Part shown: positions 41,225-49,330 of the stretch, in pieces
How positions within the stretch are numbered: position 1 is the stretch's first letter
Layout of the letters: each line of letters begins with the position of its first letter
Source: Microbacterium pullorum
Lineage (GTDB): Bacteria > Actinomycetota > Actinomycetes > Actinomycetales > Microbacteriaceae
Assembly (NCBI RefSeq): GCF_014836535.1
Contig: NZ_JACSQP010000003.1
Span: 16,483 to 80,482, forward strand
Direction: 5' to 3'
Length of the DNA: 64,000 bases
Notes under the pieces: model-generated
What the model was told of the DNA's origin: nothing
Seen by the model: the letters and a program-made list of their open reading frames with translations, nothing else
Database searches by the model: none
Made by a program: the position numbers and the translations under genes

Positions 41225-42831
41225 CGCCCGACCACCACGAGATCGCCCTCGCCCAGTTCCCCCTCGACGGGCGTGACCTCGACCGAGCCGCCGGCGGCGA
41301 GCCCGGTCGTGACGACGACGAGCCGGGTCTCGGCGTCCCTGCCCTCGCGCGGGTCACCGTCGACCACCTCGATGCGTGCCTCGCCGCCGGGGCCGGCGGT
41401 GAGGGCCGCGACGGGCACCGACAGCACCTCGCCTGCGGTCGCACCCACCGGCAGCGACACCCGCACATTGCGGCCTTGCAGCTGCATGGCCTGGTCGGCG
41501 GTGAGCTCGTCGGGCTGCAGCGCGATCGTCCAGCGGTCGCCCTGCGACGCCCCCGGCGTGAGGGCGGAGATCACCGCGCGATGCGGTGTGCCGTCGGCGA
41601 GTTCGAACGACGCCTCGCCGCCGATCTCCAGCAGTGCGGCATCGGTGGGCGCGGCGCTGCCGGTGACGGTGACCGTCGCGCCGGAGACGACCATGGCCGG
41701 CCCCTGCAGCACCTGACCGCGCGTCACGTTGACGGCGTCGACGCGACGGGGCAGGTCGCCGAGGTACAGCACCTCTCCAGCCGACAGCGACGGCAGGGCC
41801 TGCTCCCGCGCCCGCGTGAGACTCGAGCGGGCATCGGCCAGCTGCCGGTCCGCCGCATCGACGGCGGCACGCTGGGCCGACGTGTCGACGGCGGCATCCA
41901 GCTGTCGGCGTTCGAGCTGACGCAGCTCCAGGGCGTCGCGCAGGTCGGCGACCTCGGCCTCCCACCCGGGGATCGCGGCGGGGTCGACCGGCCCCTGCGA
42001 CGTCGCGACGTCGAGCGCGCGCTGGGCGCTGTTGACGGCGTTGTCGGCGGCGCGCACGTCGACCGGTGACGCACCGCCACCGGCCTGCCCGAGGTCGGCC
42101 CGCGCCGACGCCAGCGCCTGCTCGGCGGAGCGCACCCCCTCCTGGGCGGCCAGCACGTCGTCCCCCGCGCCCGCCTCCGCGGCGGGCGCCGGGTAACCGA
42201 CGCGCGCGTACAGCGCGGTGACGGCGGCGGCGGCGGTCTCGTCGAAGACATCGGATGCCGGGTCGCCGGCGTCGATCCCCACCTGCTGCATCGCCTGCTT
42301 GAACTGCACGACGTCGGGCCCGGTGAGACCGAACACCAGGGTGCGGTAGGCCGGCAGCACACCCGGCAGCACGATGACGGGGCGCCCGGCGACCTCCAGC
42401 GCCACCGACAGCGGGTCCAGGGTCGCCCCGGGTTCGGGGACGCTGCCGGTGACCACGGCCGGCCCGCCGAGGGCCGCCGTGTCGATCGTGACCTCGACCG
42501 AGTCGGCGTAACCGACGTCACCGCGGATGGCGAGGTCGTTGCTGAGGATGCCGCGCTCGACGGCGACGGTGATGAGACCGGGTGCCGGCGGGTCGGTCAG
42601 CGACGCCGCGTCGGCGGGCGAGAGCAGGAACCGGCCCACGAGCAGCCCCGCGACCAGGCTGACCACGGCCGCAGCGGCCATGATCCACAGCACCCGATTC
42701 GTGCGGAACACACGCCGCCAGCCGTGCACGCGCGCATCGTCGGCGTCGGGTGACGACGTCGACGCGTCCGAAACCGTCACATCGTCGTCGGGAAGCAGCT
42801 CGTCGAAGACCGGTGCGGTGCGCCTGCTCAC
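41221..42831 (-). CDS. Periplasmic-adaptor-like (HlyD/MacA) protein with peptidoglycan-binding domain
   Basis: 536 residues, one transmembrane segment (about 50-72) after a cytosolic acidic tail. The extracytoplasmic part contains a putative peptidoglycan-binding-1 segment (FGLTGPDVVQFKQAMQQVGI), an Ala-rich helical hairpin/coiled coil (about 230-345) and a C-terminal beta-barrel half as in MacA/HlyD adaptors. In a Gram-positive cell it probably links exporter and wall. Starts within 4 bp of the upstream lipoprotein stop. Confidence 0.82.
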   Translation of the reverse strand: MSRRTAPVFDELLPDDDVTVSDASTSSPDADDARVHGWRRVFRTNRVLWIMAAAAVVSLVAGLLVGRFLLSPADAASLTDPPAPGLITVAVERGILSNDLAIRGDVGYADSVEVTIDTAALGGPAVVTGSVPEPGATLDPLSVALEVAGRPVIVLPGVLPAYRTLVFGLTGPDVVQFKQAMQQVGIDAGDPASDVFDETAAAAVTALYARVGYPAPAAEAGAGDDVLAAQEGVRSAEQALASARADLGQAGGGASPVDVRAADNAVNSAQRALDVATSQGPVDPAAIPGWEAEVADLRDALELRQLERRQLDAAVDTSAQRAAVDAADRQLADARSSLTRAREQALPSLSAGEVLYLGDLPRRVDAVNVTRGQVLQGPAMVVSGATVTVTGSAAPTDAALLEIGGEASFELADGTPHRAVISALTPGASQGDRWTIALQPDELTADQAMQLQGRNVRVSLPVGATAGEVLSVPVAALTAGPGGEARIEVVDGDPREGRDAETRLVVVTTGLAAGGSVEVTPVEGELGEGDLVVVGR

Positions 42832-43802
42832 CGATCAGCCTGCTCTGCGGCGGCGACGAACGCGTCGAGCTCCGCCTGATGGTCCGCGATGAACTGCTCC
42901 TCGAGAGCGGCCATCACCTCGGTGGTCTTCTCGCGGTAGTCCGTCTTCTCCCGGCACTCGAGGTCGGCCAGTGCCAGCTCGATCTCGCGCTCCCCCAGCT
43001 TCGCGAGCTCGGGGTCGTCCTCGAGCCACTCGGTCTGGTTCTCGTAGTAGACGTTCAGTTCGTCGCTGATCGACGTCTGAGCATCGCCCTGGGCGGCGAA
43101 CCCCGGGTAGCCGCCGTCGTCCATGCACGCCGCCCACGCCGCATTCAGCTCGGCGAGCTCGGGGGCGGTGGCCATGCCCATGTAGAAGTCATTGACGGCA
43201 TCCATGAGCGGCTTGTGCTCGTCGGAGGTGGTCGGGTCGTCCCCGTCCATCTCATGCTGCGCCCAGCCGTGGCATCCCGCCGTCGTCCAGTCGTACTCGT
43301 ACGAGCCGTCCTCGCTCATCTCCTCTTCAGGGGTGGGCGGGCCGTACAGCACCTCGTAGAAGGCGGTCTGCTCGGCCTCGGAGAGTCCGGCGACATAGTC
43401 CTGGTTGGGGTCGACATACTCTTCGGAGGGCGCCATCGCCTCCTCCCCACCGGGGTAGTTGATCATGCCGTACCCGTACTGGGCCACCCACTCCTGCGAG
43501 TCCGGGTCCCAGACGTCGTCGGAGGCGAAGGAGATCGACCCGGTGTTGGGCACCGGGATGTACTCGAACCCCTCCTCGGTCATGCACTGCGCGACGAGCT
43601 CTTCGCGCGCGGTGTGGTCCTTCTCCATGCGCTCGATCTGCTCCTCCTCGCTGAGGTCCCCGCCCCACGCGGCCGACAGGTAGCGCCCGAGCGGCGAGAG
43701 CTCCTCCTCGTCGGCACCGCCCTGTGCTGCGGGCGTGCATCCGGTCAACGCGACGATCAGTGCGACGGCGCCGACGACGGCACCCGCGGTATGGCGGTAC
43801 AT
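42828..43802 (-). CDS. Lipoprotein of exporter cluster, paralogue A
   Basis: 324-residue lipoprotein with lipobox LTGC (Cys22). Not a recognised family. Very acidic, rich in Glu/Asp/Tyr/Trp. Four further cysteines are shared with its neighbour: AQCMTEEGF, GCHGWAQ, AACMDDGGYPGF and LECREKTDY, suggesting two disulfides. The C-terminal 60 residues are a helical, charged tail. Clearly paralogous to the next gene along the whole length; the shared WVAQYGYG and DPNQDYVAGL blocks define the family. Coupled to the adaptor gene. Confidence 0.8.
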   Translation of the reverse strand: MYRHTAGAVVGAVALIVALTGCTPAAQGGADEEELSPLGRYLSAAWGGDLSEEEQIERMEKDHTAREELVAQCMTEEGFEYIPVPNTGSISFASDDVWDPDSQEWVAQYGYGMINYPGGEEAMAPSEEYVDPNQDYVAGLSEAEQTAFYEVLYGPPTPEEEMSEDGSYEYDWTTAGCHGWAQHEMDGDDPTTSDEHKPLMDAVNDFYMGMATAPELAELNAAWAACMDDGGYPGFAAQGDAQTSISDELNVYYENQTEWLEDDPELAKLGEREIELALADLECREKTDYREKTTEVMAALEEQFIADHQAELDAFVAAAEQADR

Positions 43803-43909: not shown

Positions 43910-44839
43910 TCAGCCGACCGCCTCGGCGTCGGCTTTGAACGCCTCGAGCTGCTCGCGGTGCTCGGCGACGAAGGTCTTCTCCCACGTCGCCGTGACGGTG
44001 GCCTCGCGCGCGCGGAAGTCCGTCTCCTCACGGCAGTCGAGGTCGGCCAGGGCGAGGGCGGCCTCCTCGTCGGCGAGCACGGCCAGCTGGGGGTCGTCCG
44101 GCTCCCAGGCCGTCTGACGGCCGTAGTACTCGGCCACCGCCTCGGCGATGGAGGTCTCCGCGTCGCGCTGCACGCTGAAGCCCGCGTATCCCGACCCCGT
44201 CATGCAGGCCGCCCACTGCGCGTTCAGCTCCACGAGTTCGGGGACGGTCTGCAGGTCGGCGTAGAAGCCGTTGACGGCCTCGATCAGCTCGGCATGCTCG
44301 CCCGAGGTGAGCGGGTTGTCGCCCTCGAGCTCCTGCTGAGCCCAGTCGTGGCATCCGCCCGCGGCGCCCTCGCCCTCGCCGCCGCCGTAGAGCGCGGCGT
44401 AATACTGCGCCCGGCGCTCGTCGTCGAGGCCAGCCACGTAGTCCTCATTCGGATCGACCGCCTGCCCGGTCGGCGAGACGGCGTCAGCCTGGCCGGGAGA
44501 GGTCACGATGCCGTAGCCGTACTGCCGCACCCAGTCGCGGGAGTCGGGTTCGTATGCCGCCGCCGCCGCCGCTGGCGCCCCCGCATCGCCGACCGCACCG
44601 GGGGCGACGTAGTCGAAACCGGCCGCGGTCATGCACTGCGCAACCAACTGGTCGCGCCGCTCGCTCTCGCGCTGCAGCTGTTCGCGTTGCTCGGGGGTGC
44701 CGAGATCTCCACCCCACGCCGCACCGAGGTAGTAATCCAGCGTCGAGCGCGGATCCGCATCGGCGTCGCCGCCCGCGCACCCGGTGAGCACGAGCAGCAC
44801 CGCGGCGCCCAGGAGGGCTACGGCGGTGGGGCGCTGCAT
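43910..44839 (-). CDS. Lipoprotein of exporter cluster, paralogue B
   Basis: 309-residue lipoprotein, lipobox LTGC (Cys21), tandem paralogue of the downstream lipoprotein. The same blocks occur in order: YYLGAAWGGDL, QCMTAAGFDY, WVRQYGYGI, DPNEDYVAGL, GCHDWAQQELEG, WAACMTGSGYAGF, DLDCREETDF. The Ala-rich insert near residue 85 is unique. ATG 44839 has GGAG 6 nt upstream. First gene of the exporter cluster; a 107-bp gap separates it from paralogue A, and function is unknown. Confidence 0.8.
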   Translation of the reverse strand: MQRPTAVALLGAAVLLVLTGCAGGDADADPRSTLDYYLGAAWGGDLGTPEQREQLQRESERRDQLVAQCMTAAGFDYVAPGAVGDAGAPAAAAAAYEPDSRDWVRQYGYGIVTSPGQADAVSPTGQAVDPNEDYVAGLDDERRAQYYAALYGGGEGEGAAGGCHDWAQQELEGDNPLTSGEHAELIEAVNGFYADLQTVPELVELNAQWAACMTGSGYAGFSVQRDAETSIAEAVAEYYGRQTAWEPDDPQLAVLADEEAALALADLDCREETDFRAREATVTATWEKTFVAEHREQLEAFKADAEAVG

Positions 44840-44918
44840 CGGATCTCCGGTCTTCGCGAGCGGGTGTCGTGTCGCGATCAAGGTAGGCGGTGAGGCAGGC
44901 CGGGGCGGCACGTGCCGA

Positions 44919-45533
44919 TCAGACCGGCGGCAACTCCGGCATGCCGGTGCGAAGCTCCACCGGCAGGTGACCGAGGTCGTTGTGCGAGACGAGGGTCCAC
45001 GGGCGGCCGGGGCGCTGCGCGACCACGGTGAGCCCGCAGTGCGCCTGCGTGAGCGTCAGCCAGCGCCACTCAGGCATCTGCAACACCTCGCGCACGAACC
45101 ACGCGATGACGAAGTTGTGCGTGATGAGCAGCTCGTGCGCGTCGGGCTTGCGGCGCAGGAACTCGCCGACGGCATCGGCCATCTGCGCCCCGCCGGCCTC
45201 GATCTCGGCCTCGGTGTACGACCCGAAGAACGACTCGTACACCGCGGGGGTGTCCTCGGACATGCCGGTGGGCACGCAGTCGAACAGCAACGCGTTGGGC
45301 TGCGGCGACACCGCCGGCAGCCGATCGGCCACCGCACGTGCCGTCTGCGCGGCGCGCTCGAGCGGCGAATGCCACACCGCCGTCAGCGGCACCCCCGACA
45401 ACCGGTCCGCCAGCAGAGCGGCCTGCCGCTGACCGCGCGGCGAGAGGGGCCCGTCATCGATGCCGTGCTCTGCGTCGAGATGCTCTCCGTGCCGCACGAG
45501 AAACAGATATTGCGTCACATTCGCTCGCTTCAT
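44919..45533 (-). CDS. Histidine phosphatase family protein
   Basis: Phosphoglycerate-mutase-like phosphatase, 204 residues. Catalytic RHGE (FLVRHGEHLDAEHG) with the phospho-His, SPLERAAQTA, and the second His in ITHNFVIAWF. The lid region is short, typical of small broad-specificity phosphatases. Substrate unknown. Start at ATG 45533 is uncertain; a GTG five codons later is possible. Confidence 0.88.
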   Translation of the reverse strand: MKRANVTQYLFLVRHGEHLDAEHGIDDGPLSPRGQRQAALLADRLSGVPLTAVWHSPLERAAQTARAVADRLPAVSPQPNALLFDCVPTGMSEDTPAVYESFFGSYTEAEIEAGGAQMADAVGEFLRRKPDAHELLITHNFVIAWFVREVLQMPEWRWLTLTQAHCGLTVVAQRPGRPWTLVSHNDLGHLPVELRTGMPELPPV

Positions 45534-45584: not shown

Positions 45585-46616
45585 TCACACGGTTGCGCGG
45601 GCGAGGTCCGCCAGCTGGCTGCGGCCGAGCCTCACGCCCACGCCCTGCACCAGCTCGTCAACGTGAGCGGGTGAGAAGACGTTGACGATCGGCGCGACGA
45701 CGGTCTTCTGCGCCAGCAGCCACGCCAACGCCACCGCGGCGTCGGTGACGGCGAGTTCGGCCGCCAGCGCGTCGAGGGCGCGCAGCGTGCGGGTGCCGCG
45801 CCGATTCATGCTCGCCGCGAGCTGGGAGCCGCGCACCGAGGTGCCCACTCCCGCGCGCGAGCGGTGACGGCCGGCGAGGAAGCCGTGCTCGAGCGCGTGC
45901 GAGGGGGTCACGGCGATGCTCTGCGCACCGGCGACGAGGCGCAGGTCGCCCTCGAACTCGGTGCGGCGCAGCAGGTTGTACGGCGCATCCAGCGCGGTGA
46001 CCCGCGGCAGCCCCGCCGACGAGAGGATGCGTGCCTCGACCAGTTGCGGCGCCGTGAGCCCGAAGGCACCGAGCGAACGCACCTTGCCCGATTCGATGAG
46101 CCACTCCACGGTGGCCAGCGCATCTTCGAGTGCGGTGCCGCGGTCGACGGTGCCATCGAGGTACAGCAGGTCGATGCGGTCGGTGCGCAGCCGCGTGAGG
46201 GAGGCCTCGACGGAGCGGACGAGGTTCACGGGGCCGAGCCCCGGGTGGTCGGGGTTGGCGCCGATGCGCACCGCGAGCACCAGGTCGTCGCGCAGCCCCC
46301 GCGAGTGCACCCACTGACCGATGATGTGTTCGCTGCGGCCACCGGCGAACGAGTCGGACGTGTGCACCGCGTTGCCGCCGGCCTCGAGGTAAGTGTCGAG
46401 GATCGCGTGACTGGATTCGAGATCGACCCGCCACCCGAACTCAGCACCGCCGAGGATGAACGGGAAAACCTGCAGACCGGACTCGCCGAGGGTCGCCCGC
46501 ACGCCCTGGCCGATGGGTGGGCCCTGCACCGGAATGGGAGCAGACGGATGCGTGGTGCGGGGCTCGGTGACGAGGCGCGAGGACGAGTGGGGTGAACCGA
46601 CACCGAACAAACCCAT
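45585..46616 (-). CDS. Aldo/keto-reductase-fold protein lacking the catalytic tetrad
   Basis: 343-residue (beta/alpha)8 protein clearly alignable to aldo/keto reductases (GGRSEHIIGQW, SLTRLRTDRIDLLYLDG, GKVRSLGAFGLTAPQL, TALDAPYNLLRR). All four catalytic residues differ: Asp is His85, Tyr is Phe90, Lys is Arg117 and His is Asp154. Reductase chemistry by the usual mechanism is therefore not expected; a binding, regulatory or new catalytic role is possible. The sequence otherwise looks intact and well conserved in composition, not decayed. Candidate -10 TACCCT at 46685-46690. Confidence 0.85.
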   Translation of the reverse strand: MGLFGVGSPHSSSRLVTEPRTTHPSAPIPVQGPPIGQGVRATLGESGLQVFPFILGGAEFGWRVDLESSHAILDTYLEAGGNAVHTSDSFAGGRSEHIIGQWVHSRGLRDDLVLAVRIGANPDHPGLGPVNLVRSVEASLTRLRTDRIDLLYLDGTVDRGTALEDALATVEWLIESGKVRSLGAFGLTAPQLVEARILSSAGLPRVTALDAPYNLLRRTEFEGDLRLVAGAQSIAVTPSHALEHGFLAGRHRSRAGVGTSVRGSQLAASMNRRGTRTLRALDALAAELAVTDAAVALAWLLAQKTVVAPIVNVFSPAHVDELVQGVGVRLGRSQLADLARATV

Positions 46617-46797
46617 GTTGCCACCCCCTCGATGTTCCGCTGCGCGGATGCGAGCCGTCTGCCACGCCCCCGGCGCTTACTCCGAGGGTAAAGCAGGCCT
46701 CCGACACCACCGGACACCACGGTGCACGTCGGGTGAATATTCCATAACGTTCTGGTCACGCACGCCGTGTACTGTCCACCCTTCGGAGGACAAACGG

Positions 46798-46833
46798 CGG
46801 ATGCCCGCCCCTCGTGAGAGGAACGGGCATCCG
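46798..46833 (-). terminator. Terminator of pnp
   Basis: 10-bp outer stem CGGATGCCCG/CGGGCATCCG with an inner CCTC/GAGG pair, 28 bp beyond the pnp stop. Contains the GGATGCC motif as an inverted pair. Confidence 0.8.
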
Positions 46834-46860
46834 GACAGCGCTCAGGCGAGCACGTCGAGA

Positions 46861-49125
46861 TCAGTTCTCGACGGCGACCTCTGCACCCTCGGCGGCGGCC
46901 TCAGCGGCCTCCTCCACGACGGGCTCGAGCGACAGCTTGCCGCGGTCATCGATCTTCGTGATCTTGACGAGGATCTTCTGGCCGACATTGAGCACGTCTT
47001 CGACGTTCTCCACGCGCTTGCCACCGGCGAGCTTGCGCACCTCGCTGATGTGCAGCAGACCGTCCTTGCCGGGCAGGAGCGAAATGAAGGCGCCGAAGGC
47101 GGCGATCTTCACGACGGTGCCGAGGAACTGCTCGCCGACCTCCGGGTTGGTGGGGTTGGCGATCGCGTTGACCTGGGCACGGGCGGCCTCGGCCGCGGGG
47201 CCGTCGGTCGCACCGATGTAGACGGTGCCGTCCTCCTCGATGGAGATCTGCGCGCCGGTCTCGTCCTGGATCGCGTTGATCGTCTTGCCCTTGGGGCCGA
47301 TCAGTTCGCCGATCTTGTCGACCGGGATCTGCACGCTGATCACGCGCGGAGCGGTCGGCGCCATCTCGTCCGGACCGTCGATCGCGGCGTTGAGCACGCT
47401 GAGGATCGTCATACGGGCGTCCTTGGCCTGCTGCAGCGCGGCCGAGAGCACCGACGACGGGATGCCGTCGAGCTTCGTGTCGAGCTGGATCGCCGTGACG
47501 AACTCGCTCGTACCGGCGACCTTGAAGTCCATGTCGCCCAGGGCGTCCTCGGCGCCGAGGATGTCGGTCAGCGCCGCGTAGCGGGTCTGGCCGTCGACCT
47601 GGTCGGTGACGAGACCCATCGCGATACCGGCGACGGGGGCGCGCAGCGGCACACCCGCGTTCAGCAGCGACAGGGTCGACGCGCAGACGGAGCCCATCGA
47701 CGTCGAGCCGTTGGAGCTCAGCGCCTCGGACACCTGGCGGATGGCGTACGGGAACTCCTCGCGGCTGGGCAGCACCGGCGCGAGGGCGCGCTCGGCGAGG
47801 AAGCCGTGCCCGATCTCGCGACGCTTCGGGCTGCCGACACGGCCGGTCTCACCGGTCGAGTAGGGCGGGAAGTTGTAGTGGTGCATGTAGCGCTTGCTGG
47901 TCGTGGGCGACAGCGAGTCGATCTGCTGCTCCATCTTCAGCATGTTCAGCGTGGTGACACCCAGGATCTGGGTCTCGCCCCGCTGGAAGATCGCCGAACC
48001 GTGCACGCGCGGGATGACCTGCACCTCGGCGTCCAGCGGACGGATGTCGGCCAGGCCACGGCCGTCCATGCGCACACCCTCGGAGAGGATGCGACCGCGG
48101 ACGATCTTCTTGGTGACGGACTTGTACGCCGCAGCGAACTCGAGCGGAGCAGCTGCGGGCAGCTCGCCGGCCTCGGTCGCGGCGATCAGCTCGGCCTTGA
48201 CGCGGTCCTTGAGCTCGTCGTCGGCGTTCTGACGCTCCTGCTTGTCGGCGATCTGGTAGATCGGGACGAGCGAGTCGTACGCGCGACCGGCGACGAAGTC
48301 GTAGGTCTCCTGGCTGTAGGGCAGGAAGACCGGGAACTGCTTGATCTCCTTCGCGGCGGTGTTGGCCACCACGTTCTGCGCGCCGACGAGCTCCTTGATG
48401 AAGGGCTTGGCTGCTTCCAGGCCCTGCGCGACGACGTCCTCGCTGGGCTTGGTGGCGCCGGCCTTGATGAGGTTCCAGCTGTTCTCGGTGGCTTCGGCCT
48501 CGACCATCATGATCGCGACGTCGCCATCGGGCAGCACGCGGCCGGCGACGATGAGGTCGAACACGGCCTCCTCGAGCTGCTCGGCCTTGGGGAACGCGAT
48601 CCACTGGTCGGGGTGCTCGCCGTGACCGGGCATGAGCGCGAGGCGCACACCGGCGATCGGACCGGAGAACGGCAGACCCGAGATCTGGGTCGACAGCGAC
48701 GCGGCGTTGATGGCCAGCGCGTCGTAGAACTCACCCGGGGCGATCGAGAGGATCGTCACGACGATCTGCACCTCGTTGCGCAGACCCTCGACGAACGAGG
48801 GGCGCAGCGGGCGGTCGATGAGACGGCAGACGAGGATCGCCTCGGTGGAGGGACGGCCCTCACGGCGGAAGAACGAGCCGGGGATCTTGCCCGCGGCGTA
48901 CGAGCGCTCTTCGACGTCGACGGTCAGCGGGAAGAAGTCGAAGCCCTCGCGAGGGTGCTTGCCGGCGCTGGTGGCCGACAGGAGCATCGTCTCCTCGTCG
49001 AGGTAGGCGGCAACGGCGCCCTGCGCCTGCTGGGCGAGGCGGCCGGTTTCGAAACGAACGGTGCGGGTGCCGAAGCGTCCGTTGTCGAGAACGGCTTCGG
49101 CGGCAGTGATTTCAGGACCTTCCAA
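46861..49125 (-). CDS. pnp: Polynucleotide phosphorylase, TTG start
   Basis: Phosphorolytic 3'-5' exoribonuclease, 754 residues. Two RNase PH domains ([34 protein letters not shown] with active-site residues), an alpha-helical linker, then KH ([12 protein letters not shown]) and S1 ([21 protein letters not shown]) RNA-binding domains. Homology begins at a TTG (49125) preceded by AAGGAG at 7 nt; no closer ATG or GTG fits, so TTG is the start. An unusual structured leader precedes it. Normally paired with rpsO, which is here 5 kb upstream. Confidence 0.96.
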
Positions 49126-49129
49126 GAGG

Positions 49130-49330
49130 TCTCTCCTTCTTTGTTTAGACTCGCACGCGCGTTTCGCGCACGAGATCGTGCGAAGGAGCAGGAACAGGCA
49201 GATATAGGCGTGCGGATCGACCGCGAAACCGCCTGCGCTGGCCACCAGTGGAAAGCCACCGTCCACACGGACGGGAACCCACCACAGGGGACCAGCTTCC
49301 TGCCGGCCTGCTCCCTGAGCTCAGTATTCG
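49130..49330 (-). ncRNA. Structured pnp leader, candidate Actino-pnp RNA
   Basis: About 200 nt without a gene upstream of pnp, packed with inverted repeats: a perfect CCGTCC-GTGT-GGACGG hairpin (49259-49274) flanked by partly complementary CTGTGG and CCACTGG, and near the ribosome site two mutually exclusive stems (TCGCACG 49151-49157 with CGTGCGA 49177-49183, or CGCACGA with TCGTGCG). A conserved actinobacterial pnp-leader RNA (Actino-pnp) is known; membership is suggested by position and structure, not verified. Confidence 0.5.

Follow-up and report, generated by a model that had tools for sequence, protein, structure and literature searches.

A catalytic tetrad of Asp, Tyr, Lys and His (DYKH) is the hallmark of the aldo/keto reductases (AKRs), a textbook enzyme family. 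In the Kv-beta channel subunits (AKR6) the AKR fold is valued for a non-metabolic role, with tetrad and cofactor both kept. The solved structures closest to the protein described here, by sequence as well as by fold, are DepB (E = 9.9e-28) and the deoxynivalenol-detoxifying AKR 7utf (E = 3.3e-26), which we take to be of the AKR18 type; in the alignments both have the canonical tetrad, and they are 26-27% identical to the protein encoded at this locus.

Departures from the tetrad have been described in active enzymes. One report presents AKR1D1 (5beta-reductase), with Glu for the catalytic His, as active and NADPH-using, and the DRR domain of REPI, which has the conserved Tyr but Pro in place of His and Met in place of Lys, as an active reductase; in the same report, codeinone reductase bearing D51N, K86M or H119F has undetectable oxidative activity and only trace reductive activity (PMC8524200). 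The protein studied here shares with AKR1D1 and DRR, as described there, a replacement of the catalytic His (Asp, against Glu and Pro), but differs from these active reductases in also replacing Asp, Lys and, in many orthologues, Tyr. A precedent of another kind is provided by fungal Dis3L2/Ssd1, where a second function is reported to have arisen in an active ancestor and to have stayed, active-site residues having been lost at least four times (PMC8097288). These pseudonucleases display the same pattern of repeated catalytic loss beside a kept function that we describe below, although their fold and chemistry are unrelated to those of AKRs and their second function, RNA binding, is known (PMC8097288). 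Neither pseudoenzymes nor AKRs with a partly altered tetrad are new. Among the titles and abstracts matched in the open-licence literature, none described a pseudo-AKR family in Microbacteriaceae, nor did the searches of that literature yield a genus-wide replacement of Asp, Lys and His in an AKR whose gene has undergone six or more tetrad losses within one family.

The gene, its product and its neighbors

The window (the whole 64,000-nucleotide stretch of Microbacterium pullorum DNA analyzed) carries, at 45585..46616 on the minus strand, an ORF of 343 codons that begins with ATG and has no internal stop. Its product matches PF00248 with 139.3 bits, well above the Pfam gathering score of 24, which places it in the AKR superfamily, and its named relatives are nearly all from Microbacterium. 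The AlphaFold model, computed from an input of 54 sequences, is an AKR (beta/alpha)8 barrel (pLDDT 80.7, pTM 0.81), with low-confidence parts at residues 1-20 (pLDDT below 50) and at 211-220 and 241-270 (60-65). Among solved structures it comes closest to 7utf (Z 35.6; 287 residues superposed with an rmsd of 1.8) and to DepB 8hwn (Z 34.4; 296 residues, rmsd 2.4), with Kv-beta (1zsx, Z 33.8) and AKRtyl ranking just behind. The AKR fold proposed in the preliminary description is thereby borne out. Although the fold is held in common with Kv-beta, the protein does not belong to that family as defined by TIGR01293, to which it scores 49.4 bits against an NCBIfam cut-off of 365.4 bits.

At the four tetrad positions the protein reads His85 (codon 46362..46364), Phe90 (46347..46349), Arg117 (46266..46268) and Asp154 (46155..46157), all on the minus strand, in place of the Asp, Tyr, Lys and His of catalytic AKRs. 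Positions 85, 90 and 117 were assigned by aligning the protein with DepB and further AKRs of known structure. The phmmer alignments to solved AKRs have a gap opposite 154; alignments of orthologues, gap-free up to this point (DLLYLD versus DLLYFH), set Asp154 on the column of the catalytic His. The same four residues had been picked out by hand in the preliminary description, correctly so by these alignments. An alignment artefact is ruled out as the source of the odd tetrad: when the 13 PF00248 proteins of the genome are aligned to a profile in like manner, the 12 paralogues each show DYKH, which leaves the window protein alone without an intact tetrad, and no gap precedes 154 in the orthologues.

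Upstream of the AKR gene lies pnp (polyribonucleotide nucleotidyltransferase; 46861..49266, minus strand; Pfam RNase_PH, PNPase, KH_1 and S1), whose true start may be downstream of the first GTG of the ORF. A terminator-like hairpin separates the two genes (46796..46809, minus strand; one found, against a mean of 0.2 in shuffled sequences). The promoter-like box credited to the AKR gene in the preliminary description was not reproduced: a sigma-70-type scan of 46550-46900 found none. Downstream, 51 bp past the AKR stop, begins a gene of the histidine phosphatase superfamily (44919..45533, minus strand; PF00300, 90.2 bits versus a cut-off of 21.7). The order pnp - AKR - histidine phosphatase is the Microbacterium arrangement: among the best 80 of 309 named loci, a choice that leans towards the query, all 80 have pnp and 79 have the phosphatase gene. 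Beyond the phosphatase gene, the window holds two similar tandem genes for putative lipoproteins, recognized by eye and without Pfam match (42828-43802 and 43910-44911, minus strand), then a gene resembling an ABC exporter adaptor (no Pfam match) and an ABC ATPase-like ORF. This set follows the phosphatase gene in some Microbacterium loci and was not seen in most of those inspected. One locus (L042, JACEFY010000102.1) is labeled Stenotrophomonas maltophilia, but its pnp (90%), pseudo-AKR (70%) and phosphatase (79%) genes resemble Microbacterium ones; the assembly very likely carries contaminant DNA.

Tetrad and cofactor site across Microbacterium

A first count over 80 loci of the genome scan found the canonical tetrad in none of them. 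The comparison was then made on 140 distinct Microbacterium sequences, obtained by removing the window's own copy and any sequence that duplicated another over the C-terminal 280 residues; four split-frame genes are included, and in one row (L198) the readings at 85 and 90 are not reliable, since both positions fall outside its intact frame. DYKH occurs in none of the 140: 69 read HFRD, 45 HYRD and 26 otherwise. Position 85 is His in 127 (Asn and Gln in 4 each, Lys in 3, Thr and Tyr in 1 each), position 117 is Arg in 137 and Lys in 3, and position 154 is Asp in 136 and Asn in 4. Position 90, by contrast, varies within the genus, with Phe in 76, Tyr in 54 and other residues in 10. The earlier claim of four replaced residues thus holds as a trait of the orthologues for Asp85, Lys117 and His154, while the change of Tyr90 to Phe is not fixed.

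For reference we used 84 relatives from other genera, picked for an intact tetrad, so that Asp85 in 84/84 reflects the selection and not a frequency; within the DNA retrieved around each gene, 60 of them show pnp, the phosphatase gene or both, and 24 show neither. Against this set, the changes extend to the cofactor region. Ser185 is kept in only 5 of the 140 Microbacterium sequences, Asn/Asp186 has become Gly in 122, Gln210 Asp in 132, Ser312 Asn in 127, Ser314 Phe or Tyr in 123 and Gln318 His in 118. All six are positions that contact NAD(P)H in AKRs and, judged from sequence, they are unlike those of most intact relatives. The remainder of the protein has fared differently. Of 59 positions conserved in at least 95% of the intact set, 41 are kept in at least 90% of the Microbacterium sequences; only 85, 116, 117 and 154 are kept in 10% or fewer, and six more, position 90 among them, in 21-39%. 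The pattern is one of change concentrated on the active site and not of general decay.

These data bear on whether the protein might simply be an ordinary AKR with a tolerated, unusual tetrad, still reducing carbonyls with NAD(P)H. The conserved fold, the 41 of 59 positions kept and the Tyr found in 54 of 140 orthologues are what such an enzyme would have. It would, however, have to work with Asp85 and His154 replaced in all 140 sequences and Lys117 in 137, and with altered cofactor positions besides. Canonical carbonyl reduction by the Microbacterium protein seems unlikely because the three tetrad mutants of codeinone reductase described in PMC8524200 are nearly inactive; as a full account of the protein, an ordinary reductase is highly improbable. 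Neither does the AKR1D1 pattern (a Glu at the His position, with the other three tetrad residues unchanged) apply, as Tyr90 is replaced in 86 of the 140, in addition to the replacements at 85 and 117.

Ahead of the barrel, a conserved N-terminal motif of the HPS(A/S)PI type (seen in L115-L123, L131-L133 and L138) is found in Microbacterium and in several intact relatives; in the window protein it falls within a low-confidence part of the model. The motif was considered as a mark of the pseudoenzyme and rejected, given that intact relatives (genus codes g24, g65, g55 and others) carry it too.

Ancestry of the gene and recurrent tetrad loss

Orthologues in the same place are found in many other genera of Microbacteriaceae, and most of them read DYKH; hence the ancestor was, in sequence, a normal AKR. 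Elsewhere in the family the same gene shows other tetrads. All five sequences of genus code g79 read VHRE, VHRQ or VHHE and all three of g47 read DVTR; DAKD occurs in one of two sequences of g30, and DYKA and DYKQ in two of five of g90. Tetrads of the form (Ser/Ala/Met)-Tyr-Lys-Asp are found in g93, g38, g99, g67 and g62, YFTD, YHTD and CYTD in g102, TNRP in g49 and DDPD in g75 (where one row was DDSD in one reading and DDPD in another).

A tree was built from 107 chosen rows (23 from Microbacterium and 5 unlinked paralogues) and 280 columns, after removing the tetrad and 12 columns of the cofactor region; its bootstrap was not fully settled (correlation 0.986). Row set A1 comprised the window protein and 25 of 29 other loci, and A2 the window protein and 53 of the best 80 of the 309 named loci. 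In some rows the retrieved flank, short or unscanned, did not show pnp or the phosphatase gene, and L309-L337 had been fetched by way of pnp itself. Microbacterium forms a single clade (100/99) within intact lineages. The minimum number of changes between intact and lost tetrads is six, with or without the long-branched g49 row. This count is a lower limit and is itself blind to gain versus loss; the changes are read as losses in view of the intact tetrads of the outgroup and of most non-Microbacterium rows. A single origin of the losses, modeled as a clade of all lost rows, is rejected by the AU test (p-AU 0.00032, g49 row omitted), although the test is weakened by the lost group having been named after the tree was seen. 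On this sequence evidence, the pnp-linked AKR has undergone six or more tetrad losses, one in Microbacterium and at least five in other lineages.

In the preliminary description, orthologues with an intact tetrad in the same position were to count against a pseudoenzyme. Such orthologues literally exist in other genera; there, however, the intact tetrad is ancestral and its carriers lie outside the Microbacterium clade, and the reading stands. Taken together, the intact same-locus orthologues and the tree point to descent from an enzyme of the active type with loss of its essential residues.

The replacements themselves show some regularity. The change of the catalytic His to Asp or Glu involves five changes to or from an acidic residue on the tree, and loss of Asp85 three. 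In Microbacterium, and likewise in a clade made up of g93, g38, g99, g62, g67 and g102, the acidic residue is gone from strand 2 and one is present on strand 4, adjoining position 117, where most members retain a basic residue (Thr in g102). This shift from strand 2 to strand 4 probably represents a relocated buried ion pair.

Outside Microbacterium the neighborhood is less uniform. Several other Microbacteriaceae loci have a peptidase gene, which we take from a motif to be of the M16 type, between the AKR and phosphatase genes. Among 29 pnp loci from other genera, over-sampled for genera already known to have lost the tetrad and read for 1.5 kb beyond pnp, 16 have no AKR within 1.5 kb of pnp (L309, L310, L318-L320, L323, L327-L335 and L337), and in 11 of these the M16-type motif stands in the AKR's place. 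The AKR genes that adjoin pnp in the other 13 are all tetrad-changed. Judging from the loci without an AKR, the gene may have been lost outright several times outside Microbacterium.

Retention of the gene and its possible function

A scan of the genus found some AKR match in all 366 Microbacterium genomes, strong in 355 and weak in 11; this split was counted by eye, and for part of the 355 the tetrad and the linkage to pnp were checked as well. The weak group consists of six genomes with a divergent copy, four in which pnp is followed directly by the phosphatase gene with no AKR between, and one incomplete genome. By this reading by eye, a copy of the gene is found in 361 of 366 genomes, four of these copies being in split frames (G421, G452, G615 and G659) through sequencing error or mutation.

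In close pairs (108 pairs of named loci with protein identity of at least 88%, not independent of one another), dN/dS by the Nei-Gojobori method has a median of 0.088 and a range of 0.013-0.137. This lies between the medians of the neighbors, 0.049 for the phosphatase gene and 0.105 for pnp. In 1646 wider pairs, whose synonymous sites are near saturation, the medians are 0.28 for the AKR gene, 0.17 for the phosphatase gene and 0.16 for pnp, and because of these higher wider-pair values the AKR gene is taken to evolve faster than both neighbors. Both sets of values are those of a gene retained under selection, as a pseudoenzyme should be. Recent decay within Microbacterium was judged unlikely on the strength of the close-pair values and the near-fixed replacements, with the wider-pair values on the contrary side; the preliminary description's view that the gene is not decayed agrees with the low dN/dS in close pairs and with near-fixed replacements in 140 distinct orthologues. 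A slower decay could still be imagined, in which the reductase is unneeded, the gene is gradually disappearing and its conservation merely reflects fold stability and recent common ancestry. The absence of the gene from four Microbacterium genomes and from the vicinity of pnp in 16 of 29 other-genus loci, the repeated loss of catalysis, the split frames in four assemblies and the wider-pair dN/dS would all suit such a course. Yet the close-pair median sits between those of the two neighbors, and the same specific replacements are near-fixed across a genus in which 361 of 366 genomes have a copy (by eye, split frames included), so that we regard slow decay as improbable.

With tetrad and cofactor positions replaced genus-wide, purifying selection on the gene and the fold kept, the sequences fit the view, put forward in the preliminary description, that this is a maintained pseudoenzyme and not an ordinary AKR. 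Repeated loss of the tetrad with the protein kept suggests a second job. We consider it probable that the Microbacterium protein is a maintained pseudo-AKR that has kept a second, non-reductase function and, less certainly, that this function is a binding role in this genus. The retention of Arg117 and Asp154 even in the six most divergent Microbacterium copies supports the reading, and the activity of AKR1D1 and DRR despite altered tetrads is the chief caution against it (PMC8524200). The sequences trace the protein back to a pnp-linked Microbacteriaceae AKR with intact Asp-Tyr-Lys-His, since turned in Microbacterium into mostly His-(Tyr/Phe)-Arg-Asp; that ancestor would have been bifunctional, and it is the second function that selection would have kept.

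What that function is can be surmised with less certainty. Several residues in the old pocket are near-fixed among the 140 sequences, namely Glu59 (131), His85 (127), Arg117 (137), Asp154 (136), Asp210 (132), Ser239 (132) and Asn312 (127), to be seen against a barrel background of 117 of 296 positions conserved at 90% or more and with the proviso that the pocket positions were chosen post hoc, after the data had been seen. Because new polar residues are near-fixed there, a binding role, as a sensor or through a partner, is favored, and the sequences speak more for a binding pocket, or for some new chemistry, than for a simple scaffold. Residue conservation would be consistent with Arg117 and Asp154 forming an ion pair and with Glu59, His85, Asp210 and Asn312 lining a new polar pocket; a small ligand or a partner might be bound at the C-terminal mouth of the barrel, with the output passed through a protein partner instead of by hydride transfer. 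Given the conserved pnp neighborhood, RNA turnover or a housekeeping stress response would be one place to look.

The same residues (Glu59, His85, Arg117, Asp154, Asp210 and Asn312) might instead make up a new catalytic site, for example of a hydrolase, a lyase or a metal enzyme, or else the protein might reduce C=C or C=N bonds in the manner of AKR1D1 and DRR. The replacements are polar or charged and near-fixed, the passage from His to an acidic residue recurs on the tree, and AKR1D1 and DRR are active despite their tetrad changes (PMC8524200). However, DRR keeps its Tyr, and AKR1D1 depends on NADPH, its His replacement being the only one named in the description (PMC8524200), whereas here either Tyr or Phe can occupy position 90 and the residues at the NAD(P)H positions differ. 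Moreover, the six most divergent Microbacterium copies (L140, L143, L144, L145, L147 and L153; 220-304 bits) do not preserve the whole of the putative site: Arg117 and Asp154 are present in all six and position 85 is His in five and Gln in one, but position 90 varies (Asp, Phe, Leu, Glu), Glu59 is found in two and Asn312 in one. Four of these copies show the phosphatase gene on the retrieved stretch, and three show pnp. This variation, together with the post hoc selection of the pocket, leaves an enzyme with new chemistry rather unlikely. A related and somewhat less doubtful, though still tentative, proposal is that a pnp-linked second job outlived catalysis at least six times and that in Microbacterium the active site was rebuilt as a charged pocket from these six residues, for a new ligand or a new chemistry; the same barrel would then have been converted repeatedly, with the change from His to an acidic residue as a shared step.

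On the favored reading, that of a pseudo-AKR kept for a second, binding function, the annotation "aldo/keto reductase" at this locus would, if the reading is true, mislead as to activity in Microbacterium and in some of its relatives. A genus-wide pseudo-AKR, intact syntenic orthologues and parallel losses within one bacterial family together amount to a replicated natural experiment, one that allows tests of how enzymes turn into pseudoenzymes, of whether the second function came first, and of what that function is.
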